Assembly: GCA_949130485.1 (NCBI GenBank)
Contig: OX422183.1
Location: 27,530,816 to 27,594,815 of the forward strand
Reading direction: 5' to 3'
DNA from: Agelas oroides
Taxonomy: Eukaryota; Porifera; Demospongiae; Agelasida; Agelasidae
Length of the DNA: 64,000 bases
Shown here: positions 5,688 through 63,493 of the stretch, in pieces
Position numbering within the stretch: position 1 is the first letter of the stretch
Layout of the letters: the number at the start of each line of letters is the position of its first letter
Notes under the pieces: model-generated
The model's database searches: none
What the model was told of the DNA's origin: nothing
What the model saw: only the letters and a program-made list of their open reading frames with translations
Translations under genes and position numbers: made by a program

Positions 5688-6348
5688 TTTCTGCTAGCGT
5701 ATCTACTGATAACATGCGGCCAAAATCAGACGACGCCAAACGGCGTCATTGGTTGGTAAAGGGTTAACGCAGTAGGCTGCAATCATGCCCAAGTCACGGA
5801 GCCTTAGTCTCTGCTCTTCCAGGCGACGAAAGTTGAGTTTTTAGTCGGTTTCCCTTCCACCGGCGCTTCTCCCTGGAATATAAAAACGGGACATAAACCT
5901 TCCTCCTAGGATCAGAAATGGAGCCAATATTTGCTATGTAATTAGTGTGTTGCAGTGCCTCTTCAATCATCCTACTTTTAGAGATGTCTTTGAAGAAGTA
6001 TGTGCCTTTCATGAGAAACAACAGGGCTCAAACTGCTTATCATGCGGTATGATAGTAATATATAAGAGTGCATGACATGAATAATGATTGCCTGCTTACA
6101 CTGCATGACGTTTTGAAAAGAAATGCAAGTATAAAAAAATAATACGTAATGCTTGCACTGTTGCAACCAATTGTTGTAGTTACACTAACATCTACTTGTA
6201 GGTCCAACATGCATACTTCCAGCACTGCAGATACTGTACCAGGTATACTAGGGATGGCTTTGTCCTTTCACTGGCTCCTTTGATAACAGCCCTAAAAGGT
6301 AGTGATGAATTAGTAATCACACTGAGCCAGCAAGAATCCCTGTAAGTC

Positions 6349-10650: not shown

Positions 10651-12102
10651 AATCGTACTTGACGGACCAAGCGCGCTACGAAGTCCGGAAGCCATACAAC
10701 TGCTATAGGCCACTCCCACCTACCGTGTGACGTACCCTTGCGCTGCGCCCCTGATGTCATCATGTACATGCGCAATGCATGGTTTTGTCATGGCGGGCGC
10801 GGCACCGCGGGAAAAACAAAGCAATCAAAGCTACGAAGATGAGCATCTTGGATCTTGGCCCATATATGTTCGGAGATGTGGACCAGCAGATTGGTTGGTT
10901 TCAGAGCAAAGGCCTCCTAGCCACGAGCAAGACTTGTCCTGCATGCAGTCAACCAATGAACATGCAAACCCGCAGTGATGTCACTGACAAGTACAGGTAT
11001 GTATGCAATAATTCAGTAAAGCACAACGTACATGATAGTCTTTGGCATGCATTCGTAACAGATGGAGATGTAGTGACACTGCCTGCAGGAAGTCAGCAGG
11101 GCTTAGGGATGGGACCTTCTTTGCAAAGTCCCATTTGACACTGCAGCAATGGATGGTACTGATGTACTGGTGGGCTCGTCAATATCCAGTTACTGATGCT
11201 GCTCAGGAAGCCAAAGTTGAGAAGAATACAGCAGTCCAGGCATACCAGTATTTCAGGGACATTTGCAGCTGGCGGCTCCTGAATCATGATGCACCACTCA
11301 TGCTGGGTGGACCAGGCGTTGTTGTGCACATTGACGAGTCGCTTTTTAGACACAAGCCCAAGGTATGGTACAGCAGTATGGCTTCTAGTCTCAGTGATTA
11401 TCAACATTTTTATCATGATATCCTCCAGAACCATCGTGGGCGTCCACCCCCACGGCAAGTGTGGGGTTTTGGGATATGTGACACAAGCCACACTCCGGCA
11501 CGTGGTGTGATGAGGATAGTTCCTGACAGATCTGCCGCAACTCTACTGCCTATAATACAGCAACATGTTCGCAGTGGGACAATTGTTCACAGCGATGAAT
11601 GGGCAGCATACAACCGCGTCCAACACCTACCATCTGTTGGACAGCATAGAGTTGTGAATCACAGTCTACATTTAGACCCAGCTACTAGTGTTCACACCCA
11701 GCATGCCGAGTCCTACTGGAACCGGGTTAAGACAAAGTTTAAGCGAATGAAGGGTGTCCATGAGACCATGCTACCCTCGTACCTGGACGAGTTCATGTGG
11801 CGGGAACGTCATGGAAGTACCGCTTCCACAGCTCTGGGAAGTCTGTGTCGGGACATTGCTCTCAGGTACCCCGTTTAGGATTCCACGTTGCACCATCTGC
11901 TGGTCCACATCTCCGACAGTCTTTGCTTTTGTGTTCTCGACCGTTTTTTTTAAAAACCACCAACTTTCGAAAATCTGTCACCTGGTACGCACTGCATGTC
12001 AATAATTGGGTCACGTGACACGTCACACGGTAGGTGGGAGTGGCCTATAGCAGTTGTATGGCTTCCGGACTTCGTAGCGCGCTTGGTCCGTCAAGTACGA
12101 TT
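10651..12102 (+). mobile_element. Merlin DNA transposon
   Basis: Perfect 82-bp inverted repeats at 10651-10732 and 12021-12102, beginning AATCGTACTTGACGG, enclose one transposase gene. A further imperfect match (GCGG..CAATCG) continues about 7 nt outward, so the exact termini and the expected 8-9-bp duplication are unresolved. Arm identity and the intact gene suggest recent mobility. Confidence 0.9.
10839..11878 (+). CDS. Merlin transposase (IS1016/ISXO2-like DDE)
   Basis: A two-exon gene: 10839-10996 and 11062-11878, joined across a 65-nt GTATGT...ACAG intron, giving 324 aa. It cuts and pastes its own element. The N-terminus has a zinc ribbon, C33-x2-C36 and C56-x4-C61, whose two halves lie on different exons; only the spliced product restores it. 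The catalytic triad is D144 (VVHIDES), D231 (VHSDEWAAY) and E269 (HAESYW), followed by an ISXO2-type K/R-rich end. The length is normal for Merlin. An in-frame ATG at 10779 could add 20 residues; I chose 10839 because the Merlin-like sequence starts there. Both exons are open, so this copy may be active. Confidence 0.88.
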
Positions 12103-14657: not shown

Positions 14658-15518
14658 TCAATGTCCCTGTCCATGTTTGAAGGGGTTTGGCTGATTTAAT
14701 TTGACATTCAAACTAAGGCTATGCTTCCTTTTTGTGTGGTCTTGTTTACCACGTTTTGTTTGTGTATGGCAGTCTTCGGCAGAAGCTTTGCGTTTATGGG
14801 GTCTTCCCGAGGGTGCATATTGACTTCCTCTTGCTATGCCTTCTCGGCGCCTTGCAATAGCTGTAGGTTGTACCTTGATACGTCTGGTTCCAGCAATAGT
14901 GGTACTTGCTGGTTGATTTTTCACAAAGTATGAATGTAGTAGAGAGGACAGCTGTGGAGTTGCTGAGGTTACTGGTTCTGATTTCTTGACAGTGTCTGTA
15001 TAGACAGTAAAAAACTTGCAAAGGCCATTAAGGTATTGTGTATCCATTTGTTCAATCCTACTATCAATATCTGATATGAATTCATTTCGCAACTGTATTA
15101 CCCTGTCCTTGAGCTGTTTTATCTCATCATTCTCCTCCAACAATCCTACCATTATATCTAAATTGGCTGCTCCCTCATCATGATGTGAATCCTCATCTTC
15201 ATGTGTATCCATTTTCTCCTCACACCCACCACTAAAATCATTGGATAAGTTTCCATCATTCAAACTACCATAGAACAATTTATCACCAGCGTTTTCAACC
15301 CCCAATGCCAAAACTGCATATCCATACCTTCCCTCTGAGCTGAAATATGGTATGTAGTCTATTGATGACAAGTTATACTTCTTAGCTACCGCAGCCTGGT
15401 GTTTACATGGCTCACCTGTTGGTTTCCTTGTCCAAGCAATAGTGCATGTACAATTCCACCTGCTCGTATCTACTTCATATTCCACTCCATCATGACTGTG
15501 ACTCTTAACTATGTACAC
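14658..15518 (-). pseudogene. Mutator-like transposase, SWIM C-terminus
   Basis: A 286-aa frame that continues the transposase at 15509-16996 in another frame; the two overlap by about 10 nt, so a one-base indel near GGGAATCTG separates them. It opens with a SWIM zinc finger (CTC...EPCKHQAAV, a C-x-C-x(n)-C-x-H motif) that many Mutator-like transposases carry after the catalytic core. Then follow an acidic stretch, a possible coiled coil, and a basic tail with RRKASA- and KRGKQDH-type patches that could be nuclear targeting. It has no start of its own that I trust. Confidence 0.75.
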
Positions 15519-16996
15519 ACCTTCAGAATCAGATTCCCTAATTCACTCATGTTTACTTTTGAAGCTCCTAGTCCCTTAAACCGTAAAGCAATGTATCTGT
15601 CCATTCTATTATGAGCAACAGCAAGAAGACGGCGTTCATAGTAGAGTTCGAAAGTAACTGTCATGAACTCAAACAGCTGCACTAAATTGTATGCTTTAAC
15701 TCTCTTGAATACAATGTCCTTCAATATCCGAATGCCAGACTCTGCATAATTATTGGTATTGTTTCCTCTAAGTAAGGTTTGATCTCTGAAGCATATAGCC
15801 CATTCACCACGGCGCTCCCAGTAACCTTCCAAATGTTTCTTGAAATTGTCATACTTTCGTATAGCTGCCTCCTCCTTCAATTTTCGGTACATTGCTTCCA
15901 GCTTGTCAGTATTTTCAGCATAAACTAGTTTCCTTACACATTCCATTAGGTACTGTTTGTCGTCTTTGTCTATACTATTTTTGCTGTTCCATAACCATCG
16001 CCACATACTTTGTAAAAAATGAAACACGCATAAGAACAATTTGGCAGAAGGCCATGTTTTGTTTAATCCTTCCCTTTCAGGACTGCAGTCATCTGTTAGG
16101 ATGTTATCAGGGTACATTTTGCCCCCAAATGAACAGTTTGGAAATAGTTTCTTTAGCGTAGTCATTGCTTCAAAGATGATGTTTAAACTTTCCCCTGAAG
16201 TGATCACAACCCCTAATGGCAGACCTCCAGCTGCAGATGAAGTAGACAGTATGAACATGGGGTTATTAAAATCATCTAATGAGGATGAGGAATCTACAAA
16301 CATGATTTCGCCCGCCTGCTTTACATCTTCATGCACCCTCGCCATGAGAGGAGTGCATATAGCCAGAACCAGTGGTTGATCAGATCCCACTTCACTTTTA
16401 GAGAATCTCTTCACTACTGCCTTCCCACCAGTACTCTTATTGTCATCATTGTATATAGCAACTCGTCGTTCCAGCTCCTCATAAACATCCTTTCCATTTC
16501 TTGCTCCCAAATTAGTTTTTCGCCATACATTGAATATATTGTAAACATCACTAACTTTAGGATTGATATTTCGATCAGCAAGAGCCTGAGGGTTGTCCAT
16601 TTTTAACATGAGTGTGGTTTCATACTCTAAGTGTGCACTAGCAGGAGAATGTTTCAGTTTGAACAACTCATAATACTTCTTTCTTGTGTCTTCTGCAATA
16701 GGTCTAAATCTCAATGCACCTGCTGCATGAACAGGATGGTTGTGGTCATGTTTGAGGTTTACCAGTACAAGATAGTCCTTATTTAATTTGCCACTTTTGC
16801 CACTAGGAGAGATAATGGTAACATTCATCTGTGCTGGACAGTGAGTGTGCTTACTACTGTGTTCTCTGAATGTTGTTTTGAGTAACCTAGTGCTTTTACT
16901 GTGCTTGCCAGTCTGCCGTTGATTATGATGCCACCGCAAAAATAGTTTTCTAACTACATGCTTTCCACTGCCTTTCCTATTACGTTCATATACCAT
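15509..16996 (-). pseudogene. Mutator-like (MULE) transposase core
   Basis: A 495-aa frame. Residues about 47-90 hold a WRKY/GCM1-like zinc motif (C-x(n)-H-x-H, HDHNHPVH). The MULE DDE core follows: D235 (MFVDSSS), D302/D303 (ILTDDC), the C-x2-H segment CVFHFLQ (H326) and E419 (NNYAESG). Catalytic residues are present. The frame is open upstream of this ATG to about 17160 and then connects, by a second frame change near 17175, to the acidic N-terminal piece at 17169-17399. With two indels this copy should not make a full protein. Length and domain order fit animal MULEs. Confidence 0.85.
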
Positions 16997-17168
16997 TGTC
17001 TCTTTAGTTTTCTCATTGTATTCGTTAACCCATTTTCTAGCCTCCTGTTCTGACTTCAGTTTTATTTTAAATTCACATGAAAAGCTAAATGAGTCAGCAT
17101 TTTTAGACTGAATCTGTGAAAACCTGTAGTCATACCCCTCTGGAAGGAGTTGCCAAATGTTTCCTTCA

Positions 17169-17399
17169 TTAACGATACAATGTACACCTGAATTCAGAGT
17201 CTGATGAATGAAAAAGCGCTGGCATTTTTGTTTTGCTCATTGTTTTGCCACTGTGATTATCTTCAAAATCGTCTGAATCACTGTCTGATATATTACATTT
17301 AGAATCGTCTTTGATACCAAAATCAGTGTCACTTTCGTGTGTTTTGAATGCAGCACTTGTGGCATCATGAATGTTAACTAGCATGGCACCTATTTTCAC
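17169..17399 (-). pseudogene. MULE transposase N-terminal acidic piece
   Basis: A 76-aa frame rich in Asp/Ser (SDSDSDDFEDN) starting with GTG; a more likely ATG is 5 codons inside. It lies directly after the end of the protease frame and ahead of the transposase core in a different frame. I read it as the transposase N-terminus broken by an indel. Confidence 0.5.
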
Positions 17400-27537: not shown

Positions 27538-28213
27538 AGAGAGTCGGTAGACTCTCTATGTAGGGATGGCGCCGACGCGCAATATATGCAATACTTAAGC
27601 AAAAGCCGTACAACTTCACCACAAATACGCTAAAAGCTTATTTAAGCGCCCAGGCCTCCTGTTTGAGTGCCTTTGTGATCAGCAAGACTCATATAAGTGG
27701 CCAAAAACCGCGCGGAAGACAGCTAAACTCAAAAGTGTGCGATAGCAAAAGTGCCATTTTTCGTATTCTTTCTTGTTACGACTTTTGTTCAAACAACGAT
27801 ATCTCGCAAACTGTTGAAGTACTCGCCGTCATTTTAGCACGAAACTGATGGTTATCACAACGCGGAGCTCTACAACCACTCAGCGTCTTCATAGCTTCAA
27901 ATTCACCCTGGTCAATAAAAGCCATTCACAACACTCTGAGGCTGCTGTCCGTTGCTTAGGACGCCATTTTCTAATTTTGTACGCATGCGCACACGAAGTC
28001 TCGTTCCCAGACCAAAGACCACGGTCATTGGTCTGGAAGCGAGAGTACACAAGCGAGCTGGCATGACTGGCACGGTCTTTTCCCCCCGCGGCATTGGGCA
28101 AGGCTTATGAACACCACGTAGGTAAGGCGCTGCATTCAGCTGCCTACTTGCAGCTACACTAAAAATAGCCTACTCACAGCTTTAGTGAACTGTAAAGCTA
28201 GGATGGTCAGTAT

Positions 28214-28219
28214 GATAGT
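28214..28219. other. Target-site duplication, left
   Basis: GATAGT, repeated at 34051-34056. R3 at 35622-35627 and R1 (inverted, 25098-25103) carry this site once, without insertion. Confidence 0.9.
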
Positions 28220-28324
28220 TATGGGGTGCCGTTTGTGTCAAAACTAATAATTCAGTCGATGTACATATTACAAGTCGATGTGCAGTTTCATGGCGACGAT
28301 CCCGTCAAGCAGCGTTAGTTTTGA

Positions 28325-28450
28325 GGCGACGAATTTCAACTGAGGAGACGAATTTTAACTGAAGCGACGAATTTCAACTGAGGAGACGAATTTTAACTGA
28401 AGCGACGAATTTAACTGAAGCGACGAATTTCAACTGAGGAGACGAATTTT
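28325..28450. repeat. Left subterminal 19-bp array
   Basis: Seven units alternating GGAGACGAATTTTAACTGA and AGCGACGAATTTCAACTGA, one with a 1-base deletion. They are candidate transposase binding sites. The mirror array is at 33756-33945. Confidence 0.85.
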
Positions 28451-28566
28451 AGCCTCGCCTCGTTCCCAGGCCGCGTGGGAGAGAGACCCTATTTCGATTA
28501 CGTCATGATCACGTGAAACTACCAGGCGTATACATATTCGCGTTCCAGGAGCCTGGGAACGAGGCT
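28451..28566. repeat. TAGCCTCG-type MITE remnant
   Basis: Sequence between an AGCCTCG..GTTCCCAGGCC left end and a GCCTGGGAACGAGGCTA right end, just upstream of the transposase ATG. It shares TATTCGCGTTCC with the MITE at 33581-33672 at the other end of the element, in the same orientation, so it is an independent insertion and not part of the inverted repeat. Confidence 0.5.
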
Positions 28567-28591
28567 AAACAGAACGTCACCAGCGATCGAG

Positions 28592-29991
28592 ATGGCTACC
28601 TGCCGTGCTCTCGTTGACGAAATTGAGAGTGAACTAGCGTCAGCACTGGTACAAACACTGGTGTCAAGTGGGCTGATTAGCAATAGGGAAGAGAGGTCAG
28701 TCCATAGCTCTATCATGGACATATGACAAAGGGAGTTGACCAGAATGATTTCCGCATAATTTTCTCATAGGTACTGAGTGCATATGCTGAACTCCACAGG
28801 CATCCTAGTTTACTATCTTGACTGTTTTGTTACTCTAGATCACCTGGACGTCCAATGCTGGAGGTTTCTTTTGAGGAGATTGAATATCTTCGTGGTTTAC
28901 GATTTACATGGACCAAAATAGCGGAAATATTGGGGATCAGCAGATCTACCTTATATCGTCGTTTGGAACGGGAAGGTGTTGACCTTACCTGCACTTACTC
29001 AGATATTTCTAATACTGAACTTGACCGCATAGTTGAATCTATCAAGCTAGCACACCCAAATGATGGAGAGAGACTGATGATTGGTCACCTTCATCGTCTC
29101 GGCTACAAAGTTCCTAGATCTAGGGTGAGAGCATCTATCCACCGTGTAGACCCAATCAACACTGTAATTAGGAGAAGTGTTACAATTCGTAGGCGTGTGT
29201 ACTGTGTGGAGGGTCCCAATTCATTGTGGCATATAGATGGCAATCATAAGTTGATTAAATGGCGGCTAGTTATACATGGAGGTGTTGACGGTTTTTCAAG
29301 AACTATAGTCTACCTTCATTGTTCTACTAATAATGAAGTGTCCAGTGTGATGACTTCATATCTTGATGCTGTCAGTATGTATGGCTTACCTGATCAGGTT
29401 AGGTCAGACCAAGGTGGAGAGAACATCGAGGTGTGGCGCTACATGTTGGAGCAGCATCAGTCAGAATCTGCAGTGTTAGTAGGATCCTCAACACATAATG
29501 AAAGAATTGAAAGAATGTGGAGGGATGTGTATAGGTGTGTTGGTGTACTATATGCTGACCTTTTCAGGGAAATGGAAGCTGATGGAAGACTAAGTTGTCT
29601 AAATGAAGTTGATCTCTTCTGTTTACATTCGGTATTCTTACCGAGAATCAATGATTCTTTAAAATCATTTGTAGAATGCTGGAACAATCATCCGCTATCA
29701 ACATCAGAAAACCTGACACCCAACCAGTTGTTCATTGAAGGGGCATTGAGGCAGAATATGACTCCAACATTGCACACTGCAACCCATGCCACTAGTACTA
29801 TATCCCGTCTACCCCACCATCATGATGCAGTTGCTGTCCCCAGATCTACATTCACTCCTTGTGACAATCTACAAGATGAACTTGATCAGCAAGATATGCT
29901 ACGGGTGACAGACGACTTTGGTTATTCAGTTTATCGACAAGTGTGTCGTCTAGTTGGCCATCATCTACAGCAGTGTAATGAATGCAGTTAG
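28592..29991 (+). CDS. IS3/rve-type DDE transposase
   Basis: Two exons, 28592-28695 and 28839-29991, joined across a 143-nt GTCAGT...CTCTAG intron, give 418 aa. The join yields a continuous RSPGRPMLEVSFEE segment. Residues about 57-81 form a helix-turn-helix (WTKIAEILGISRSTLYRRL) for binding the ends. The rve/DDE core has D168 (LWHIDGNH), D225 (RSDQGGEN) and E259 (NERIERMWRDV), spaced D-x56-D-x33-E. It should cut out and insert the element at 6-bp staggered sites. There is no reverse transcriptase, gag or LTR nearby, so it is not a retroelement integrase. The frame has no defect. The promoter is the stretch between the left repeat array and the ATG. Convergent with the HECT gene. Confidence 0.9.
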
Positions 29992-30404
29992 CTTGAATTT
30001 CATTTTCTTACCTTTAAGATTCAAGATCTACTCTTATGTACTTGTGTTATGCACACCCTCCCAGGTTTGTGGTGGGTGGGAACTCTGAAGGGGGTTTGAC
30101 CCCCTTTAGGAGGGGCAATTTTTACAGCACATGCACACATTTGTGTACTCCTAAGTTAATGAAAGAGACTGCTGTAGAAGGGAATTTCATAATTAAATCC
30201 CCTATTACACCTCACTTCCTACCAACCCAGGAGGGTGGGGCATAACAGTGATAGCTGTATTACTAATTACTTATTACTTACACATGCAGGGTAAAAGGTA
30301 TTGATATGTACATACGGAAAACAGACCATGAATGTGAATGTTTATATGTACAGAAATGATTGTCAAGTAATGTAATGTACACATGAATAGAAGAGACAGA
30401 GCAA

Positions 30405-33400
30405 CTAGACATGACCAAATCCAGCAGCATTAAGAATGCCATATGACATGTAGTAAACAAACTGATCTTCTGATAGTAACGGCCTTCCCACAGGAAGGTA
30501 CAACGTGTTAGCACAAGTGTTCGATCTAGGAAATTGGTTCATGTCGTGAAACGCGATAGTTGGCTTCATCATCCCAAATCCTGCAGGTGGTGGAGATGGG
30601 GCACCAGTAGCAAATTCAAGAACTGTCCCAAAATTCAGACTGAATTCTTCCATCTCACCACTGTCATTCAGAAGATGTAACTTTCCATCCCTGGATGCTA
30701 GAGGAAAAGAGCATTCATAACAATGATAAATATTTAACATTGTCACTAGGCCTTTCCCACTTGGGAGTCTTGCTTGTATATTTAAAAAAACAGTGATGAG
30801 AGTTGCAACTGCTCCTTGTCAAATCGCTATGAATAATGTAAGATACATCTAATTATGTAATTAGTAACCCTTACATTCGATCATTTCAAGGAAGTGAACC
30901 CAGAACATCACCACCTGCTCCTCGTCCTCCCTCCTGTTGGAGCCCTCCAGGGAAAATCGTGTTTGAAAGAGGTTGATCATAACATCTGATGTAATTGGTG
31001 CAGGTTTTGAAGTAAACAATTTGTGCATACTGTGTGGATTGGCTTTGATTAAATCATAGATTCCAAGAGCGTTTAGGCCATCTATCATCTGGTCAAGCTG
31101 TGCTTTCACCCTTACAACAGTAAAGTGCTTTGCAAAAAATTGCACAACACAATCACGATCGGAGAGTGTGCTTGGTTGCTGAGTAACACCAAGTTCAAAT
31201 CTAAAGTCAAATGCATCATCATCAAGTACTGTCTTCATTTGTTCCACTGTTTGTGCTCCTTCAAGCTGCAACAATAAGAAATCAGGTCTTCATAAAAGAT
31301 TTAAGTTTGGGAGGGAAAGACAATGACCTGTGTGTCACAGTACGCTTTTCCTTAAGGGAATGTCCAGGAATTTTTTTTTTATTCTCTAAGGTTGGTTTGA
31401 AGCCATTTTAAAATTGATTTATTAAAAAATTTCCAGGGTCACACGTGTTTGAAGTGACAGTGTTAAACTTTAATGGACTAACCTCTTCCAGTTTTCTTCT
31501 AATGTTATCGTCTGGCACCTCTCCTATGGTTGCGGTCACCTTGGTCATACCATGGACAATGTAGTCAACAACTGACGGGGCAAAAAAAGTTGGAGAAGGG
31601 CCACCGTGAATGAGAGATACTGAGATCATTTCCCCAATGTACTGGTATGTGCGCTTCTCTAGTGCTGTGACATTAGGTGTTGGAACACGGCAGTCTTCCC
31701 TTCCATGAAAAAGACAGTTGTTGTTAGCAATTGCCCCCATCAAGCGATGAAGGAATTCCCGCAATGGCCCTCCATCATCCACTGCAGCCTCTCCCACAAA
31801 AGTGATACGAATATATTTTTGAAAGTTGATTCCCGACCTAAAGCGACGAAGTGCATCTTCCCAAAGGTGCTTACGTCGCACCACAATCCGTTGGTACTCT
31901 GACCTGTCAACAGGCAGCATCTTAACCTTCTGTCTATGAAGTATCGTTTCTACAGGGATCCCATCACTAAGAGAGTAAAAAAAACAAAAAACATAAGATG
32001 CCACTTCATGACTACACATCAAAAACCCAGCAGTTGCTAAGCAACCCATAGGGCAGGAACTAGTAGGCAGGTCTTGACAAATTAGTTATCAGAAGCAGCT
32101 ATGCTCTATAAGGTATCTGCAATCAAGACTGCTTCTCTCTCTAGCTTAAACCTCACCATTCATCAGCAGGTGTCAGTGGAGAAATGGGTGGAGATGTGGG
32201 GCTCCCAGGCTCAGTCTCAGGCTCATCATCGCTCACCAAGTTCACATATTCACTGCAAAGACACTGACATGAACTAGTGATGGTTCAAAACACTACTGCA
32301 TCTGGAAACTTACATGTAAGCACTGCTTCCCATCCATGAACACCCAGGCTTGTCCACAGTCGGCAGACCTATAATAAAGGAAATGGACAGTATAGTGCTA
32401 TTATGTTGTCTTGCCACCCTCACCCAATCCTACCTTTGACATCTTTACAAGAGTTTGGTTTCTTTGCCACAACACTAGAGGAGTGTCTAGCCAATCCACC
32501 TATCAGTTAAAAGGCACACCACAGAGCATCAAACATTAACACACAGAGGGAGCATTGTACTCTTTACCTTGTCGTGGATGCTTTTGCTCAAGCTGAATAA
32601 CCGGCAGATCGTCGGGATCACCATCATGCTCACTTCCACCACTCCGCTCATCTTCAAGCTCATCATCCTCCGGAAGAGGCACTGCAAGCTGCAAATGGAC
32701 ATATTTGTTAATTAGGGAAAATATCTTTCAACCACAGTATTTCATACCTCTAATGGTTCATCAGCAATGATATAAATTGGGGTCTTAGCATTTCGGCCAG
32801 CCACAGCACTAGCAGTCCACCGGTAGGAGTGTGACAGTTCTGGAATCATTAAACTCCTGCTGTCACCTCCAGATGGTTGCAAGATCTTGAACGGGAACCC
32901 ACTGTCGCCATCCATTGGGACATGAAAAACTGATCGGATCTCATCAAAAATTTCATCCTCTCCCATGCTTGAATTAAGCTGAATTTTTCCCAGCAGCTTG
33001 TTAACTGCAAGGAAGTGTCTCATTGGCTTTTTTCGGGGTATTTTGATGACATTGCCTCGTTTAGCAAACCATTTAGGAAGGCAAACAATGTCCCTTTCAT
33101 ACGTATAACTCAACTTCCCTTTACCCCTGCGGGTAGTGGCTGCAGCAGACATCGCTTTTTTTGCATGTCGGTGCAGAAAAGCTGAGGGAAAAGCTGTTGA
33201 TCTTTTCCTTAAAAACGAAAACAAAACAAAGCAATAACACAAATGACGACAGCTGCTTATACACCGTGCACAAACTGTCCAAGACTGCATGTTACGTAAA
33301 ACTAACTTACTTGCTCGATTTCAGCTTCTTTTGTGGCGCCAGCTGGACACGGTCGTCACGATCATCTGATGAAGAATCTGAGGAACTCTGACGTACACGA

Positions 33401-33531
33401 CGCCTGTCGGTAGGCGTAGAGCGTTGCTTGTCACGACTGGGCTTGTTCTTCAACTGGGATAGGACTTTTGACACTGCTCCGCTTAGAACGCGTTCTACCG
33501 CCTTGTAAGAGTCATCCCCACCTTGCGCCAT
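30405..33531 (-). CDS. HECT-domain E3 ubiquitin ligase, transposon-borne
   Basis: Nine exons on the minus strand: 33531-33311, 33207-32748, 32688-32568, 32499-32434, 32368-32314, 32252-32157, 31966-31483, 31265-30875, 30697-30405. All junctions have GT and AG, and the total of 2,187 nt is an open frame of 728 aa. The N-terminus is Ser/Arg/Asp rich; exon 2 holds an unrecognised domain (RRGKGKLSYTYERD...); exons 3-6 are acidic linkers. HECT covers exons 7-9: VRRKHLWEDALRRF and ITFVGEAAVDDGGPLREF (N-lobe) and FPRSNTCANTLYLP with catalytic C693 (C-lobe). HECT enzymes take ubiquitin onto this Cys and pass it to substrates. The family resembles proteins often annotated as G2/M-phase-specific E3 ligase-like. 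Its start lies beside the right terminal repeat, convergent with the transposase. Exon boundaries are by inspection. Confidence 0.88.
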
Positions 33532-33580
33532 TCTGCACGCTACAGAGTCTGACAACACGTGGCACGCAACATACAAACTA

Positions 33581-33672
33581 GCCTCGTTCCCAGGCTAGGC
33601 GGGGAGTTTGGGCCGGTATCGGTGAGCAGCGGTATTCGCGTTCCGGAGCGGGAGAGTCTGGGAACGAGGCTA
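33581..33672. repeat. TAGCCTCG-type mini-MITE
   Basis: TAGCCTCGTTCCCAGGCT to CTGGGAACGAGGCTA, about 92 bp, inside the right end of the IS3-type element. A second incomplete one (33685-33754) follows. They sit in what should be the promoter of the HECT gene. Confidence 0.6.
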
Positions 33673-33755
33673 AGTATTCTGTATAGCCTCGTACCCAGGC
33701 CGTTTAGGAACGAGACTAATTACAGCTACGTTCCAAAGCATGGGAACGAGGCTGT

Positions 33756-33945
33756 CAGTTGAAAATTCGTCTCCTCAGTTGAAATTCGTCGCTTCAGCTG
33801 AAATTCGTCTCCTCAGTTGAAATTCGTCGCTTCAGCTGAAATTCGTCTCCTCAGTTGAAATTCGTCGCTTCAGCTGAAATTCGTCTCCTCAGCTGCAATT
33901 CGTTGCCTCATTTGAAATTCGTCGCCTCAGTTGAAATTCGTCGCC
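33756..33945. repeat. Right subterminal 19-bp array
   Basis: Ten units, inverse to those on the left, mostly alternating TCAGTTGAAATTCGTCGCT and TCAGCTGAAATTCGTCTCC. Differs from the left array in copy number and in C/T changes, while the outer 105 bp are identical. Confidence 0.85.
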
Positions 33946-34306
33946 TCAAAACTAACGCTGCTTGACGGGATCGTCGCCATGAAACTGCACATCGACTTGT
34001 AATATGTACATCGACTGAATTATTAGTTTTGACACAAACGGCACCCCATAGATAGTTTTCTGTGCTGCAGCTGGTCAGTCGTCATGTGATTGACAACTGA
34101 ATCATGAAATTGGTTTCACAAAGTTTGGTACGGAGAGTGGTTGGCCCTTCAGCAGGTTCTAGCTGGCTATATTATTACATGCCTGTAACCACTACTATTA
34201 AAACTGTCAACGCCGTTTCAAGTTGTGGTGTTGTGGTTACACTTGAAATATTCTTCTTTGGCTTAGGTCTAACTGTAACTGAGATTAACATCAAAAAAGT
34301 ACAGAA

Positions 34307-34901
34307 ACAAGACTTAAAAAACATAAAAAATGTAAAAATATGTAGGGATGGCATGCCAAAAAGTATGCAAACAAGGTAGGGATAATGCAGGGAAGCAAAG
34401 GTCAACATATTGGCAAAGCCCCATCCCTACATCTTTTTCACACTACAGTTAGACAGTGCATGGGGGTCTTCTGAAAATGTTCACAACCTTTACTGGCAGT
34501 TCATGGCTGTAGCCTTGTTCTCAGGCCACTTCCTTCTCCCACGTGGCCTGGGAACAAGGCTAGTATGACCCTATTGGTAGCATTGTTATACGGAACCTCT
34601 TCAACAACTTAAGCAGTGAGTTAGAGTAGACTGCAGATTTATGATATGTGTCGTTAAAGTACATGGCATGGTTTTAGCCTCATCCCCAGGCCACTTTCCT
34701 TCACCCACATGCCGGCTCAGGAACGAGGCTATAAATATGATCTAGCAGCATTGCATCAGCTGTAGTGTGAAAAAGATGTAGGGATGGGGCTTTGCCAATA
34801 TGTTGACCTTTGCTTTCCTGTGTTATCCCTACCTTGTTTGCATACTTTTTGGCATGCCATCCCTACATATTTTTACATTTTTAATGTTTTTTAAGTCTTG
34901 T
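34307..34901. repeat. Central foldback of R2
   Basis: Inverted arms as in R1 (ACAAGACTTAAAAAACAT outward) with the ATGTAGGGATGG / CCATCCCTACAT bracket. The loop contains several TAGCCTCG-type short hairpins. Confidence 0.75.
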
Positions 34902-45673: not shown

Positions 45674-47861
45674 TTTCTGGTGAAAATTGATATGCTAAAT
45701 TGTTGTCTGCATTTCTCCAACACCCAACAGTGTATTAACACCATATATATTTTATGGATAGAGGTATGCCTGGTCATCAAGAAAAAAGTTGCAACTTTCT
45801 GGAAGACGGTCCACGTGAGCAAGAGAACCGCTAAAGGTGAGCCCCACCCAGCAATCACTTGGGGCCCAAAAGGCGCAACACTTAGACATCACGAATCGCG
45901 GCCTTTCAGGTTGCATACTAAACTACTCACTTAGTTCTAACATTCTACCGGGTAGAATAGCCTAATTCGCTCGGGAACATACCTAACCGAGCTAAACAGT
46001 GAGTTTTGGCCACTCAACCTGTAGCTTCTCCCGCTCTTAGCGATCTTTAACTTTCATGAACGAGAATTCTACGCGGTGAACTAGCGGAGACACACAAACA
46101 ACATCTTATGAGATACACAGAAAGTCGTAAGTCGTTCGGGAAGTGTTGCGCATAAACGAGGACAACTTCTCACTGTCTTCGTGCGGCCATTCTGGCTAAC
46201 AGTCACATGACCTAACAACCACACCCACAAGTTATGGGGGAGGAGCTAGGACGTCCTCACATTTGCCGCAAACTCCCAAGGACAGCTGCGCGCGTCGAGG
46301 GAGACTCGATACTCGATACTACACTAGTTGATTGATCAAGTAAGTATGTAATATAGCTTGTTGAATGGTACATATATCTGGCATGCAAAAGAATGTTTTG
46401 CAAGAGAACAAGAAGCTAGAAAATGTTAGTGAATGTGGCTTGAGAAGTGCAGGTTTAAGGTTGTGGCAGGTGTCTTGATAGGTTTGCAGAACTGCAAGGA
46501 ATAAAGATATACAGTGTATTACTAGGATAATTATCACCAAGTTCAGCCTGAGAATTACATGCTGAGTTAAAAAGTACTGTAAAAATACTTTGTGCGTATA
46601 TATGAAGACATGGCTTTCACCTTTCAGATCTCCGCATATAGTCACTTCAGCAACAGCGTTGAGTGGTGGCCCTAGGGTTGTGGGGAAAGCTCAGGTTAGT
46701 AATGCATCATTACAATCTAGGTGATTAGTAATTGTGTGCAAATACTATTCGGTGAAATACTGCCAACTTGCCACAGCGGAAGAAACACAATTTAACCTAG
46801 TGTACTGTCATTTGTTTGGCATGAAATTCACTTTATACTGCTGCACAAGTTACACTGTTGAACCTTTCTGCTGGTAAATTTTTTGTGACACTTTTGAGCA
46901 TTCTTGTTTGGACTCAACACACACAAGCATTCAAAGTAGGTAATAGTCCTATTGGTCTACAACACATACAGCAGTATCCATTGAACACATTTCACACAAC
47001 ACAAAATAAAAAAAGGACTGGATAGTCTCTTTTTTGTTATACCATTGTCAGTCTCTAACCTCATCTACTCCCATGAATATATATACCTCATTACACAAGT
47101 TAGCATGCAATATCGTGAGTTATTGCATGAGTGGACATGGTATTTTCACGAGCCGAAGGTGAGTGAAAATACAGCTCACGAGTGCAATAATCGCAATATG
47201 CACGCAAACAAGTATAATAAAATGTTTATTATCCATTACCACAGCAGTGTCGCGTAGCCTCATGCCATAACACCCGAGCCGTGAAATATCGTGTGATATT
47301 GCACAGCTGGGGAATAGGAACATACTGTTGTAAAAATATCAATTGGATAATAAATAGCTGTGTACTTCTAATTTATGCTTGCATGTGCAAGCCCTTCAGA
47401 TAATGTAATACAAGCTGCATGCTAGGTTGGGCTAATGAGTGTTTTAAGTGTTTTTAACATCTGGTGCTTAGATAGGTATATATACAGTAAACAGGGGAGG
47501 TATATAGCTATTAACCCACCACTGACGCCCTAGGGGACTGAAGACAGTTTTATACCAGTGAAGTAATTACTTGATTTCAACTCTCTTTGAACACAAGTCC
47601 AGTTCATCTTTCATCGGTCAATTCCACATAAGTGGTGATAATTGAATTAACTACAAGACTTATCAGCCACAAACCTGTCTGTACCACTTGTGAAGTCAAT
47701 GACTATGTCAGCTTCTGTGTTCAAGAGAGCTGAAATACACTTATTCATAAACCAATTTGTCAATTTAGTGGTTACAAGATGCAACTGTAAACCACTAATT
47801 AAGTATGTCAATGCTATCTGTGGGAGAGAAATTTACCCAAGTTTCTTAATATACAGGTGGC
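45674..47861. other. Left non-coding part of the 12-kb element
   Basis: No gene. A palindromic repeat lies at about 47108-47202 (GTATTTTCAC..GTGAGTGAAAATAC nested in TATTGCA..TGCAATA), and TATTGCAC strings follow to 47320. It may hold the promoter of the large frame. Confidence 0.4.
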
Positions 47862-50800
47862 ATGGCACAAAGCTGCCTCAGGCATATCACTCTAGAAGTA
47901 AATTGTGGATTCTGTCGAACAGCTATACGTGAACTAACCGACAGGAACAAAGGAAGCAGGAACGACATTGATGCTCAAACAAGAGCCCTTGAATTTCAAA
48001 AGCTATTCAAGGATTGTCCAAAGTACTGTCAAAATGGGTCATACTTCGACAGTTGTGGATACAATGGTTCACAGTTTGATCGTGACTGTGAAAAAGTCCT
48101 TTTACACTTTCACAAAAAGTGGCATCCCAAAGAATCTCGGCTTGACTATGAAAAACAATTTTCAATCGAAAACTGGAAGGCTCTGCCTATGCACAAAAAG
48201 AAGGGTCACACAATGGCCAAATGTGAAGCATGCCGAGATGAATATTACCACCACCAACAAATGTACCCCCAAGGACCACACTTCGATCCAGTGCCCATAC
48301 TTTCAGTAGATGTACAGGAACTACACCAATTGGGGAAAGCAAAAGGCACAAGGAAAGTGTTAGCTGAAATGAATGCCAGCTTTTCCAACGTTTTCAATGC
48401 TTCATTTACAAGCTCTCTTGTGAAACATGGAAAAGAGCCTATACACATGAAACCAACACCAAATGAGAGGAAGAAAAAGTTGAGATCAGTGTACAGGCAG
48501 TGCCGTGACAAAGAAAATGAAGCCCGGCGAAGTACAGCTGCTATAGCTGCTCTTACTGAGGATCGCTCAATGCGCTCCTATGGGCGAAAGAGGAAGTTAC
48601 AATCGTTTGAAACACCACCTTCAAAACGAACAAAGTCAAAGGCACACTCACCCAATTTCACCAATGTCACATGGGACAAGGACGAAGTGTTAAAAGACTT
48701 GCAATCACATCCACCTGCACCACCACGAATTAACTGGCAAAGTTTTGCAAGACAGCACAACATTCCCGGAAAGAACTGTGGGCAGGTGGTGAAAGAGTTT
48801 GCTGTCAAATCTGGAATTGATGTGCCCAGGCTAGAGGGTGTGTCTGAATCCAAAACTCGCCAACGCTCAATGCTACGAAGACTACCAGGTGGAGAGATCT
48901 CAGCACCAGCTGATCCTCCTTCCCATGTGATAAAAGAGTCAGGCAAGTTGTCACTGGGCATACCATGTGTACCGTTCAAATTGGTCAAATTTATCCCAAC
49001 CAATGGTGAACTGGTCAGAAGAGAAATCAGCATCATAGGGCGCAAATTTCCACTACAAGAAGTTCGCCAAAAGCTCTTGAAAAAGCATGAGATGTATATG
49101 CGTCTGAATCAAGACGACGAAATCAACAAGATGACAGTGGCAGAGATGCAATCCTTCCTAGTCAAATGTAAACATCCAAACAACCCCAATTCCACATCTG
49201 ATCAGCTGTGTGCAACCATGAGAAAGGTTCAGCGAACACGGACCTTAGTTCTGTGGCATGATCATGGTGTACTCCTCGGCTTAGGATGCATTCTCATGAC
49301 CATTCACACTGCCTATGACCCAGCAGTCTTCTATACTCCTCAGGAGTGCAAGGAAAGATTTGGCAAACCTGTTGAAGTGCAGTCAATAATTGAACGTCCT
49401 GAACTCTACATCCTTGCAGCAGGGTCATCAAGCAGTGAAGATCAAGCAGCTCTCATCCAAGACCGGCTTGACTGTTTGCCTGACCTTCCTCTTCCCACAA
49501 CAGCAACCAATGGTGTCTGTGTTGAAGACAAGTTAACGTTCTTCATTGGGGACCATCCAGCCCAGCAATATGAGCGAGGAACACAGCATGGTGGGACATA
49601 CAAGTGCGCCTGTGCCTGCAAGCAGTCCATGTTTGAAGATTTTGCCCACACTGTTCACTGTGAATGGCGGTCTCTGTATGACATCCAAAAGATCGCTACG
49701 TCTGGAAAGTACGGCAAACAAGCAGGGCAGCTAAAGCCACTTGATAGCCTCCTAGTTGCTCAGCTGCGAGAAGAGCTACATGCACGTAGTGTGTACGACA
49801 CTGACTATTGCAAACCAGAGCTACAGAACAAGTTAACCAACATACTGATGGGAATCCAGCGTGTGCCTGCACTGCTCCTTCTAAACCCTTGCCAAAACCT
49901 AAGCAACCTCCATCTCCAGGGTTACACAGTCCTAGACTGTGAACCTTTACATGATATCAAAGGTCACTTTGGAAATCTTTTTAAGGAGTTGCCACATATC
50001 TTGCCTCAAGAACTGAAGAGCTCCTGCAAAGAGGTCATTGAGGCTAACACCAAGGACAACATGACTGGTGCTGCATACCGCCTGATGTCAATTCAGCTTT
50101 TCCTTCATGTTAAGAAAGCCAATGTTGACCCTTCCATCCTCCTCCTTCTTGAAACAGCAGTGAGAATCTCAGAGCTCATCTACTTACCTGATGAAAAGCG
50201 AACCCCACGCCGTGTTCTTGAGCTTTACAACATCACATGGCTTCACCATGAGCTCTGTAGCAAGCTTTTTCAGTCTTTCCATGGAGATCTGAGTCGCAAC
50301 AAGTTCTTTGGCTCATACTTACATTCCCTAGTTGTCCATGCTCCTCTCCAACTTGAAATCATCTCCTTGCGCTCTGTTAACACAGAAAATCAGGAGAGAT
50401 ACTTTAACCAAGCTCGCAGGGCAGCGACTAATGCTAGCAACCGTCAACCTCAAAACGTGATATCTACCATCCTACTGCGACTTCAAGCAAAAGCTGAGTA
50501 CAGAGACATCTTTGGCTCAGTGCAACACGGGGAAAGCATGGTAGCTAAAGCTGCAAGTAATGTTCCCCAGTACAGTGGTACTTACATTACTCGCAACTTC
50601 CTTCAGCATCGTACAAGAAGCTGGCAAGCTCATCTTGAACGGGTTAGCACATATTTAACACCTGGTGAAGGAGTGTGGTGGGAGAAAACTCTCACTGGGT
50701 ACCACTTCTTTGATGGAGATGACGACCCTGAGCAGCACAGTGAAGGACCATCCCTACAGCACTTCAGGTACACTTCAATCCCAGAGGTCATTTCACAACA

Positions 50801-52229
50801 CAAAGAAGCCTGGGAAGTTGTCTTGCAGAAGGAAATTGAATTACCAACTCCTAGACTACATAAATATGGTTCAGATGGAAATCCTGTCACATCACACAAT
50901 TCTAACAACAGCATCCCACTTCCTGGCTATATCACTACCTCAGACAGCAGTGAAGCTTTGACAGACATTACTGATAACCCAGACCATGCCTCCCTTTCTC
51001 TTTCTCTTCCAGACAATAGTCAAGCTCCAGTACCGACCCTCCAAGACAATAGTCAAGCTCCAGTACCGACCCTCCCAGACAACAGTCAAGCTCCAGTACC
51101 GACCCTCCCAGACAACAGTCAAGCTCCAGTACCAACCCTCCCAGATGACAGTCAAGCTCCAGTACCAACCCTCCCAGACAACAGTCAAGCTCCAGTACCA
51201 ACCCTCCCAGACAACAGTCAAGCTCCAGTACCAACCCTCCCAGACAACAGTCAAGCTCCAGTACCAACCCTCCCGGACAACAGTCAAGCTCCAGTACCAA
51301 CCCTCCCAGACAACAGTCAAGCTCCAGTACCAACCCTCCCGGACAACAGTCAAGCTCCAGTACCAACCCTCCCGGACAACAGTCAAGCTCCAGTACCAAC
51401 CCTCCCGGACAACAGTCAAGCTCCAGTACCAACCCTCCCAGACAACAGTCAAGCTCCAGTACCAACCCTCCCGGACAACAGTCAAGCTCCAGTACCAACC
51501 CTCCCGGACAACAGTCAAGCTCCAGTACCAACCCTCCCGGACAACAGTCAAGCTCCAGTACCAACCCTCCCGGACAACAGTCAAGCTCCAGTACCGACCC
51601 TCCCAGACAAAAGTCAAGCTCCAGTACCAACCCTCCCGGACAACAGTCAAGCTCCAGTACCAACCCTCCCGGACAACAGTCAAGCTCCAGTACCAACCCT
51701 CCCGGACAACAGTCAAGAACCAACATGCAGTTATGAACATCCAGTTCCTCACCTACCATCCCTCCTAGATGACAGTCAAACACACAAAGACCCATGCCAC
51801 AACAGCATCAAGGAAAACTCTAGTGAGACTATCACAGAGTTCATTGACTACATTCCAAACCCAACAACAGAGTTACAGCCTTCAATGGATACACACACAT
51901 ACAAAACAAAGCACGCTACAGAAATTTCAAGAGTCATTGGCACCACAGACGAATTGAAGAAATTTGATGAACTTCGTCACAGAATCAAACAAAGCAAAGG
52001 CAAGAGATCACCAGAACTTAGAATTCATGACTGCCTCTTAACAAGTATTAAAACCAAAGTATTAAGAGAGCGATCATTAGCCAGGAAGAAAATTAGTGAG
52101 GTAGAACATCATTACTTTCATGCACATGGGACCCTCCCTTCTGAAGATAATAACACAGACATTGCAGCACTAATGTCTAAGCTTAAAACAGCAAACAAAC
52201 TTCTCAAGTCTTGGAATGTGTCTCTGTAA
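47862..52229 (+). CDS. Large transposase-like protein, CMC-type candidate
   Basis: A 1,455-aa intronless frame. The N-terminus (1-130) is Cys/His rich, including C-x2-C pairs (EVNCGFCRT; KCEACRDEYYHH), followed by a basic KRTK-type region at about 245-265. The candidate catalytic core has TRTLVLWHDHG (D467), FFIGDHPAQQYERG..GGTYKC (D564) and LDCEPLHDIKGHFG (H697-D698), which resembles the G-D-x-P and D-x-x-H-D/N blocks of CMC/EnSpm transposases. Residues about 1050-1285 are 21 copies of the 11-mer DNSQAPVPTLP. A basic C-terminal tail follows. A splice acceptor (ATACAG) sits just before the ATG, so an upstream exon is possible. No internal defect. Its place inside an element with proven inverted ends supports a transposase role; the family assignment is tentative. 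Confidence 0.65.
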   Translation: MAQSCLRHITLEVNCGFCRTAIRELTDRNKGSRNDIDAQTRALEFQKLFKDCPKYCQNGSYFDSCGYNGSQFDRDCEKVLLHFHKKWHPKESRLDYEKQFSIENWKALPMHKKKGHTMAKCEACRDEYYHHQQMYPQGPHFDPVPILSVDVQELHQLGKAKGTRKVLAEMNASFSNVFNASFTSSLVKHGKEPIHMKPTPNERKKKLRSVYRQCRDKENEARRSTAAIAALTEDRSMRSYGRKRKLQSFETPPSKRTKSKAHSPNFTNVTWDKDEVLKDLQSHPPAPPRINWQSFARQHNIPGKNCGQVVKEFAVKSGIDVPRLEGVSESKTRQRSMLRRLPGGEISAPADPPSHVIKESGKLSLGIPCVPFKLVKFIPTNGELVRREISIIGRKFPLQEVRQKLLKKHEMYMRLNQDDEINKMTVAEMQSFLVKCKHPNNPNSTSDQLCATMRKVQRTRTLVLWHDHGVLLGLGCILMTIHTAYDPAVFYTPQECKERFGKPVEVQSIIERPELYILAAGSSSSEDQAALIQDRLDCLPDLPLPTTATNGVCVEDKLTFFIGDHPAQQYERGTQHGGTYKCACACKQSMFEDFAHTVHCEWRSLYDIQKIATSGKYGKQAGQLKPLDSLLVAQLREELHARSVYDTDYCKPELQNKLTNILMGIQRVPALLLLNPCQNLSNLHLQGYTVLDCEPLHDIKGHFGNLFKELPHILPQELKSSCKEVIEANTKDNMTGAAYRLMSIQLFLHVKKANVDPSILLLLETAVRISELIYLPDEKRTPRRVLELYNITWLHHELCSKLFQSFHGDLSRNKFFGSYLHSLVVHAPLQLEIISLRSVNTENQERYFNQARRAATNASNRQPQNVISTILLRLQAKAEYRDIFGSVQHGESMVAKAASNVPQYSGTYITRNFLQHRTRSWQAHLERVSTYLTPGEGVWWEKTLTGYHFFDGDDDPEQHSEGPSLQHFRYTSIPEVISQHKEAWEVVLQKEIELPTPRLHKYGSDGNPVTSHNSNNSIPLPGYITTSDSSEALTDITDNPDHASLSLSLPDNSQAPVPTLQDNSQAPVPTLPDNSQAPVPTLPDNSQAPVPTLPDDSQAPVPTLPDNSQAPVPTLPDNSQAPVPTLPDNSQAPVPTLPDNSQAPVPTLPDNSQAPVPTLPDNSQAPVPTLPDNSQAPVPTLPDNSQAPVPTLPDNSQAPVPTLPDNSQAPVPTLPDNSQAPVPTLPDNSQAPVPTLPDNSQAPVPTLPDKSQAPVPTLPDNSQAPVPTLPDNSQAPVPTLPDNSQEPTCSYEHPVPHLPSLLDDSQTHKDPCHNSIKENSSETITEFIDYIPNPTTELQPSMDTHTYKTKHATEISRVIGTTDELKKFDELRHRIKQSKGKRSPELRIHDCLLTSIKTKVLRERSLARKKISEVEHHYFHAHGTLPSEDNNTDIAALMSKLKTANKLLKSWNVSL
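51011..51720. repeat. 33-bp coding minisatellite
   Basis: About 21 nearly identical 33-bp units (core CAGTCAAGCTCCAGTACC) within the large frame, each encoding DNSQAPVPTLP. Differences are mostly A/G at one or two positions plus rare N-to-D or N-to-K changes. Copies were homogenised recently. Long antisense frames here are by-products. Confidence 0.95.
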
Positions 52230-62888: not shown

Positions 62889-63335
62889 TTAAATGATGGT
62901 ATAGTTCAAGGCGTGCTTCTGCAGTGTGTATACATGTTCCTTAAGAGCATTTCTCCAAGATCTGTCCACTTGCCAAGCACACAACAATTTCGTTGTACCC
63001 TCTACTCCAAAAACACTCTTCCATGAATTATAGTATTGTTCCGCATCATCGCTCATGAACCATTGAAGAGGTTTTAGTGGTCCAGTTCTGTATTTTATTG
63101 CTCCCAGAAATTCTACCAATATTATAGCATCTTCCCAGTTTGAGATGGCCCAAGCTACAGGTATGCCCTCACCAAAGTCATCCAACACAAGGATTGTGAT
63201 TAACTTAAAATCGTACATGTTTGTTCCGTGTGTAGCATCCATGCAGATACACACATCACCATACTTGCACAACATATCACGTTGAAACTGGGTTTGGATT
63301 CCAAGTATGAAATCATCATTTCCAACATTGTCCAT
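62889..63335 (-). pseudogene. MULE transposase core
   Basis: A 148-aa frame matching the DDE core of a widespread animal MULE group: VCICMDATHGTNMYDFKL (D33), PLQWFMSDDAEQYYNSW (D96/D97) and LLCAWQVDRSWR. In that last block the usual C-x2-H is C-x2-Q (Q122), a likely inactivating change. Upstream the frame is broken by an in-frame stop (WVE-stop-LKS) near 63390, and it ends early at 62889, so this is a dead copy. Confidence 0.8.
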
Positions 63336-63493
63336 ATCATCAGGTTGCGGCTCACCTTGTGCTTTGAACAGAAGGAGAGGGTTGTTTGGAAGCGATTTTA
63401 ATTATTCTACCCATGCACATACTCTGGTAAGATGATTTGAATGCCTCATCACACCCTCTATATGTTGTATCAGTTCTTAATGTTGTGTATGTC

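Follow-up and report, generated by a model that had tools for sequence, protein, structure and literature searches.

A predicted HECT ubiquitin ligase gene paired with the transposase gene in IS3EU/GingerRoot-like DNA transposons of the sponge Agelas oroides

In the genome of the sponge Agelas oroides, a complete DNA transposon carries a gene for a predicted HECT ubiquitin ligase that faces its transposase gene. Judging from the sequences, a HECT gene seems to be a frequent companion of the transposase gene in transposons of this group, the pair having been kept and having co-diverged over many families. The element lies in a window of 64,000 nucleotides (contig OX422183.1, forward-strand positions 27,530,816 to 27,594,815), to which all coordinates below refer. 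Overall, the observations seem best explained by a two-gene cut-and-paste element of the IS3EU/GingerRoot type with a transposon-borne, SUMO-targeted ubiquitin ligase that acts against silencing, a reading to which we assign a probability of about 0.6. The anatomy of the element and the co-mobility of its genes are close to certain, and the ligase is very probably an active partner and not a passenger. The SUMO-targeted anti-silencing mechanism itself may apply, with somewhat less than even odds.

Anatomy of the element and its two genes

The transposon spans positions 28220-34050 (5,831 bp), exactly the bounds proposed in an initial annotation of this DNA. Its inverted ends (28220-28345 on the plus strand, 33925-34050 on the minus strand), with the tips TATGG... 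on the left and ...CCATA on the right, are indeed identical, over 126 bp rather than the 105 bp originally given, and reach 95% complementarity across 193 nt. Inside each end lies a subterminal array of a 19-bp unit, comprising 6.8 copies on the left (28322-28449, plus) and 10.2 copies in the opposite orientation on the right (33755-33948, minus). As annotated, the 6-bp duplication GATAGT is found on either flank (28214-28219 and 34051-34056), and it occurs as a single copy at the empty target site: a query made of the two flanks joined by one GATAGT is matched over 123 of 123 bp at three other places in the genome. In this search, 40 matches were scored out of 1,079 first-look candidates, and all 40 cross the junction with an identity of 94-100%, 13 of them over 120-123 bp and 27 over 128-130 bp with a few extra bases. 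The window element is inserted into repeated sequence.

Because the target site also exists elsewhere without the insert and with just one GATAGT, the ends and the duplication are not due to chance, and both genes must have jumped as one unit, together with everything between the tips. The opposite scenario, in which a transposase-only element would have inserted next to a host HECT locus, is effectively refuted, as both genes lie between the inverted ends and within the duplication and neither is present at the unfilled site. Since HECT is missing from the empty site, it is not the unique host locus that the initial annotation had considered as an alternative.

Both genes are open and multi-exonic and face each other, as annotated, with stop codons about 410 bases apart. 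The transposase gene consists of two exons on the plus strand (28592-28695 and 28839-29991), with splice sites read by eye and an open frame for a predicted protein of 418 aa. Pfam rva_4 (PF24764) matches this protein at 1.3e-72, and rve (PF00665), the type named in the initial annotation, matches at 2.2e-07, just below the profile cut-off. In a profile search with residues 36-418, helix-turn-helix models matched, and no zinc-finger model did so at E<=1. Exon 2 holds both the helix-turn-helix region and the core, with D168, D225 and E259 presumably forming the catalytic triad, as assigned by motif. All 10 families compared retain D168 and E259, and nine retain D225, the exception being the decayed L051.

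On the minus strand, the predicted HECT protein of 728 aa is encoded by nine exons separated by eight GT-AG introns, from 33531 down to 30405. Its splice sites were chosen by eye; a spliced alignment gave the identical model but used the same protein as query, and so checks the script and not the gene model. Exon 1 (33311-33531) contains the start codon, and exon 3 (32568-32688), which is acidic, exon 4 (32434-32499) and exon 5 (32314-32368) form a linker. The HECT domain begins in exon 7 (31483-31966), as judged from a structure-database match; exon 8 (30875-31265) follows, and exon 9 (30405-30697) encodes the C-lobe, where the catalytic Cys, C693, lies in NTCANTLYLP. The HECT assignment of the initial annotation was borne out by the PF00632 profile (3e-14, 53.8 bits versus a cut-off of 23.9), and solved HECT domains match the protein, E6AP first. 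C693 is kept in 8 of 8 families readable there, two further rows being gapped, and is invariant in a six-sequence HECT alignment. The protein has an apparently complete enzyme domain and is predicted to be a ubiquitin ligase.

Further copies and pairing across families

Matches to the end motif TATGGGGTGCC number 207 across the genome, compared to 24 for a reversed-pattern control. We read the ends of 12 elements, namely the window copy, eight from the first 100 of the 207 motif matches, and three (L039, L049, L050) reached via HECT hits. All 12 begin with TATGGGG and finish with CCCCATA, and the 6-bp duplication is perfect in 11, with five of six bases in L038. Six of the 12, which represent three families, contain the transposase and the HECT gene between matching ends and are flanked by perfect 6-bp duplications. 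Within the window's family, L037 is 98.8% identical to the window copy and L039 96.5% with an insert, and each has a perfect duplication of its own, GTGTCA and CGGAGC, respectively. L037 is without HECT residues 1-44, and in L039 a stop lies close to the insert, so that of the three copies of this family the one in the window is alone in having both genes open. L040, L049 and L050, which belong to two other families, have both genes in the same layout, matching ends and perfect 6-bp duplications, with transposases 50-52% identical to that of the window. The outcome that would have spoken against the initial annotation, other copies with the same ends consistently devoid of HECT, was therefore not what we found. 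The subterminal arrays of these three copies consist of 20-bp units that differ in sequence from the window's 19-bp unit; such family-specific arrays would suit transposase binding or a VANDAL-like anti-silencing factor. Five further elements (L038, L042, L045, L046, L047), in which neither protein found a match at E 1e-3, look non-autonomous, and the last of the 12 is the deletion derivative L041, described below. Several copies are broken.

Relatives were also sought outside this genome. When bacterial and archaeal genomes were scanned with a transposase alignment, two loci were returned, both in sponge-symbiont bins; scans of viral contigs with the transposase found no relative. One locus, L059, is a contig from a Methylococcales symbiont bin of Iophon, which we take to be sponge host DNA. 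Its transposase gene is interrupted and is faced, about 200 bp further on, by an open frame of 371 aa with a HECT match above the cut-off (1.5e-6); upstream of this frame lies a piece resembling the N-terminal domain of the window's HECT protein (profile comparison E 1.5e-5, probability 80). BLASTP of this N-terminal piece against P0001 gave no meaningful match. In the window's genome, the Iophon HECT has relatives of 43% identity that are likewise convergent with transposases; one of them is free of stops and another contains a single stop. The second locus, L060, breaks off within the transposase. Protein database searches, in which word-sharing candidates were scored, yielded a Dysidea avara protein of 696 aa that is 40% identical across 98% of the queried part and, in a second search, five HERC-type matches and one fragment. 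Taken from these sequences, the pairing is probably present in at least two sponges.

Across the 259-Mb genome, 116 transposase matches form 77 clusters and the HECT matches form 67, these counts being lower bounds. Among the HECT clusters from element-type queries, 28 of 38 have a transposase no more than 5 kb away, versus 0.16 expected from the simple length fraction of the genome covered; for clusters found by Pfam alone, the figure is 3 of 29. One HECT search entered this primary count with 36 of its 63 rows, the 27 omitted rows lying in clusters already covered; the transposase search and the two other HECT searches entered it with every row. The 33 transposase clusters with HECT are convergent with it in 30 cases, tandem in three and divergent in none. 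A one-off capture of HECT was dropped as an explanation, since 28 of the 38 clusters are paired; the annotated HECT cargo on a complete transposon is real, but instead of being a singular cargo it appears to be a common companion in this group.

When queries from the Iophon contig were added, HECT was found beside 38 of 95 transposase clusters (33 convergent, 5 tandem), a count whose HECT side is biased by the use of six hand-picked Pfam rows. Here, recognisable HECT within 5 kb was absent in 36 of 47 shorter transposase clusters and in 21 of 48 longer ones (800 bp or more), and the expectation that intact copies always hold both genes was not borne out. Four of these 21 were looked into. L041, a 3-kb copy, was considered as a transposase-only origin and rejected: it retains remnants of a HECT gene of the L040 type, from either end of that gene, with 98% identity over 53 C-terminal residues, and because of these remains we regard it as an internal deletion derivative with transposase. 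L058 (transposase at C2:9277703) contains weak HECT-like pieces (hhalign E 0.0015, probability 17, and E 0.23, probability 0.3), which we did not count as HECT. In L064, an apparent N-terminal domain of the HECT protein was seen (E 0.001, probability 22) and no HECT was recognised, and in L065 a HECT match was not found.

HECT and transposase appear to have diverged together. Between families, their protein distances correlate with r 0.44 (permutation p 0.0006) in a test on 10 families, each represented by one pair out of the 14 retrieved. All 14 rows gave r 0.71, eight families r 0.58 (p 0.0016), and a second alignment with 14 families, in which L061 and L063 are near-identical, r 0.24 (p 0.02). 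In both trees, L040 joins L049 and the Iophon element groups with L061, L062 and L063, each with a support of 1.00, while the remaining branches of the HECT tree are long and partly at odds with the transposase tree.

In the window's family, substitution patterns point to purifying selection on the HECT gene. Of the changes between the window copy and L039, 20 are synonymous and 8 are non-synonymous (dN/dS 0.11, Fisher p 4e-8), and L037 versus L039 gives a dN/dS of 0.19 (p 9e-6); for the window copy versus L037, the ratio of 0.29 is based on four changes of each kind only. Elsewhere, no clear constraint was seen, with a dN/dS of 0.93 for L049 versus L050 and 0.46 for the C6/C13 pair. These data bear on the possibility that HECT is a captured host gene, carried passively and without function for the element. 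Such a passenger would agree with the longer transposase clusters without HECT, with the broken copies and with the near-neutral ratio of L049 versus L050. It is, however, quite improbable in view of a HECT architecture that is conserved between families down to 30-39% identity, the retained catalytic Cys, the low ratios in the window's family, the co-divergence with the transposase, and the recurrence of the layout in the symbiont bin of a second sponge.

Predicted domains and proposed role of the ligase

Two features lie ahead of the HECT domain. Near the start of exon 6 (32157-32252), the predicted protein contains the SUMO-interacting-like motif YVNLVSDDE. Such a motif is present in 7 of 8 readable linkers, 54-63 residues ahead of HECT, according to a pattern that was chosen afterwards, and it also occurs in one family held out when the pattern was written. 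The L052 linker, whose model is too short there, was left out of this count and failed when tested apart, and a looser motif scan reached no significance per individual linker. The motif is a candidate for SUMO binding; some families additionally have a ubiquitin-interacting-like motif. Exon 2 (32748-33207) encodes a conserved N-terminal domain, which structure modelling suggests, with low confidence, to be a ubiquitin-like beta-grasp.

In the mechanism we propose, the transposase would bind the ends, perhaps via the family-specific 19-20-bp subterminal arrays, and move the element. The second protein would combine a possible ubiquitin-like domain, a SUMO-interacting-like motif, in some families with the ubiquitin-interacting-like one, and HECT. 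It could thereby bind host proteins that are conjugated to SUMO and have accumulated at the silenced element, and ubiquitinate them, and their removal would render the transposase gene transcribable. RNF4-type and viral ICP0-type SUMO-targeted ubiquitin ligases join a SUMO-interacting motif to a ubiquitin-ligase domain of the RING type, whereas the window protein is a HECT, is transposon-borne and has putative SUMO targeting. In C. elegans, SUMO on HDAC1 is reported to be required for Argonaute-directed silencing (PMC8131101); given this need for SUMO, a SUMO-reading ubiquitin ligase would be a fitting anti-silencing tool. In a wider and more tentative form, a whole branch of animal DNA transposons would encode a SUMO-targeted ubiquitin ligase that clears SUMO-marked silencing complexes, as a counterpart of herpesvirus ICP0, with the N-terminal domain and the subterminal arrays confining it to its own family and with an exchangeable effector end.

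Alternatively, the ligase could act on its own transposase, either limiting its level or removing it from the strand-transfer complex to allow the completion of repair, much as unfoldases strip some bacterial transposition complexes. The convergent arrangement and co-divergence of the two genes are as expected of mutually binding proteins, but self-regulation of this kind needs no conserved SUMO-binding-like motif, and we consider it somewhat unlikely.

Relation to known transposons and significance

By its ends, its 6-bp duplication and its transposase type, the window element fits the IS3EU/GingerRoot type, in agreement with the IS3EU link drawn in the initial annotation. IS3EU elements are described as having TA..TA ends and usually 6-bp duplications (PMC10045372). 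The IS3EU/GingerRoot group further shares with the window element a DDE transposase without HHCC zinc finger, whose first catalytic D lies 100-300 residues from the start (D168 in the window transposase); unlike here, HECT and ubiquitin are absent from the main text of the paper describing that group. Fungal IS3EU elements have TAYGG..CCRTA ends and carry TET and alpha-kinase genes, the alpha-kinase gene opposite to the transposase (PMC12730594). They resemble the window element in their ends and in having a further gene of opposite orientation to the transposase, but their companions are alpha-kinase and TET/JBP, and HECT is absent from the main text of that paper (PMC12730594). As for an exchangeable effector end, these fungal relatives with an opposite alpha-kinase gene may be mentioned alongside L064, which seems to keep the N-terminal domain without recognisable HECT.

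Ginger1 transposons carry Ulp1 or OTU proteases and, like the window element, are integrase-like transposons bearing an enzyme of the SUMO/ubiquitin system; in Ginger1, however, the transposase itself contains this enzyme as a protease domain and a zinc finger is present, whereas the window element has a separate ligase gene (PMC2836005). Ginger1 duplications are given as 4 bp (PMC10045372). We rejected membership in Ginger1, as the window transposase matches no zinc-finger model and the duplications are of 6 bp. Break repair is governed by SUMO and ubiquitin, and the ligase could recruit or tune host DNA repair at donor and target sites after a jump. A repair role has been suggested for the Ulp1/OTU domains of transposases in Ginger1, a related superfamily (PMC2836005), but nothing here singles out repair factors, and we regard this as unlikely.

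For the anti-silencing role that we favour, plant VANDAL elements offer a parallel, although their transposase and second protein are unrelated to those of the window element. VANDALs likewise have a second gene besides the transposase (VANC or the Ulp1 gene of KIU) and short family-specific noncoding motifs, and an anti-silencing role has been reported for VANC (PMC13317346). Literature searches returned neither a DNA transposon described as carrying HECT nor a paper that treats IS3EU together with HECT; a record that is unpublished or confined to a database may exist.

The usual picture of a DNA transposon is that of a transposase and its ends. The elements described here have a second gene, its enzyme domain apparently complete, that seems to have been kept, and to have diverged alongside the transposase, over many families and probably in at least two sponges, and some sponge 'HECT' gene models may be transposon genes. 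If the ligase targets SUMO-marked silencers, it would be an animal counterpart of the anti-silencing by plant VANC, and an arms race between a DNA transposon and SUMO-dependent silencing would become directly testable with one small gene.

Flanks and insertion site of the element

The sequences bordering the element (28155-28219 and 34051-34114) are part of a high-copy repeat, and the unfilled junction, in which these flanks are joined across a single GATAGT, was found at 40 scored places with 94-100% identity, 27 of these matches being a few bases longer. Directly to the right of the element lie 41-nt perfect inverted repeats (34408-34448 and 34760-34800) separated by 311 nt, a pair that perhaps represents a small non-autonomous transposon.

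Further mobile-element genes and a repeat-rich frame

The window also carries an open frame of a non-LTR-type retroelement, comprising endonuclease and reverse transcriptase (6346-9090; RVT_1, 3.5e-37), an open frame with an ISXO2/IS1595-type transposase domain (11039-11878; 3.7e-20) and pieces of MULE-type transposases at 15509-17236 and 62889-63401 (MULE, 0.00032, under its cut-off; ZSWIM1-3 RNaseH-like, 1.5e-10). An open frame of 1,459 aa (47850-52229), which has no Pfam match at E 0.01, contains a long tandem array of the 11-residue unit DNSQAPVPTLP.

Related transposases and their neighbouring genes

Two contigs from sponge-symbiont MAGs, QPIL01000069.1 and LWTN01000127.1, resemble host transposon DNA, from which we infer contamination of the bacterial bins. 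In the window's own genome, two open transposase frames of 416 and 408 aa (C1:16254674-16255531 and C21:4497033-4497962) share only 27-29% identity with the window transposase and have no HECT match within 5 kb; they possibly constitute a separate lineage or domesticated genes. At another locus (C2:9278600-9283600), next to an open transposase frame of 472 aa, HECT-like pieces on the minus strand (655-1473 of this interval) have the correct order and orientation, at E-values of 0.0015 and 0.23 that are too weak to claim. A further transposase cluster without HECT (C2:8050000-8054100), one of four such clusters of equal length, is adjoined by an open frame (2-280 of this interval) resembling the N-terminal domain of the HECT protein (hhalign E 0.001, probability 22), which continues into proline-rich repeats; the effector part may have been swapped here.
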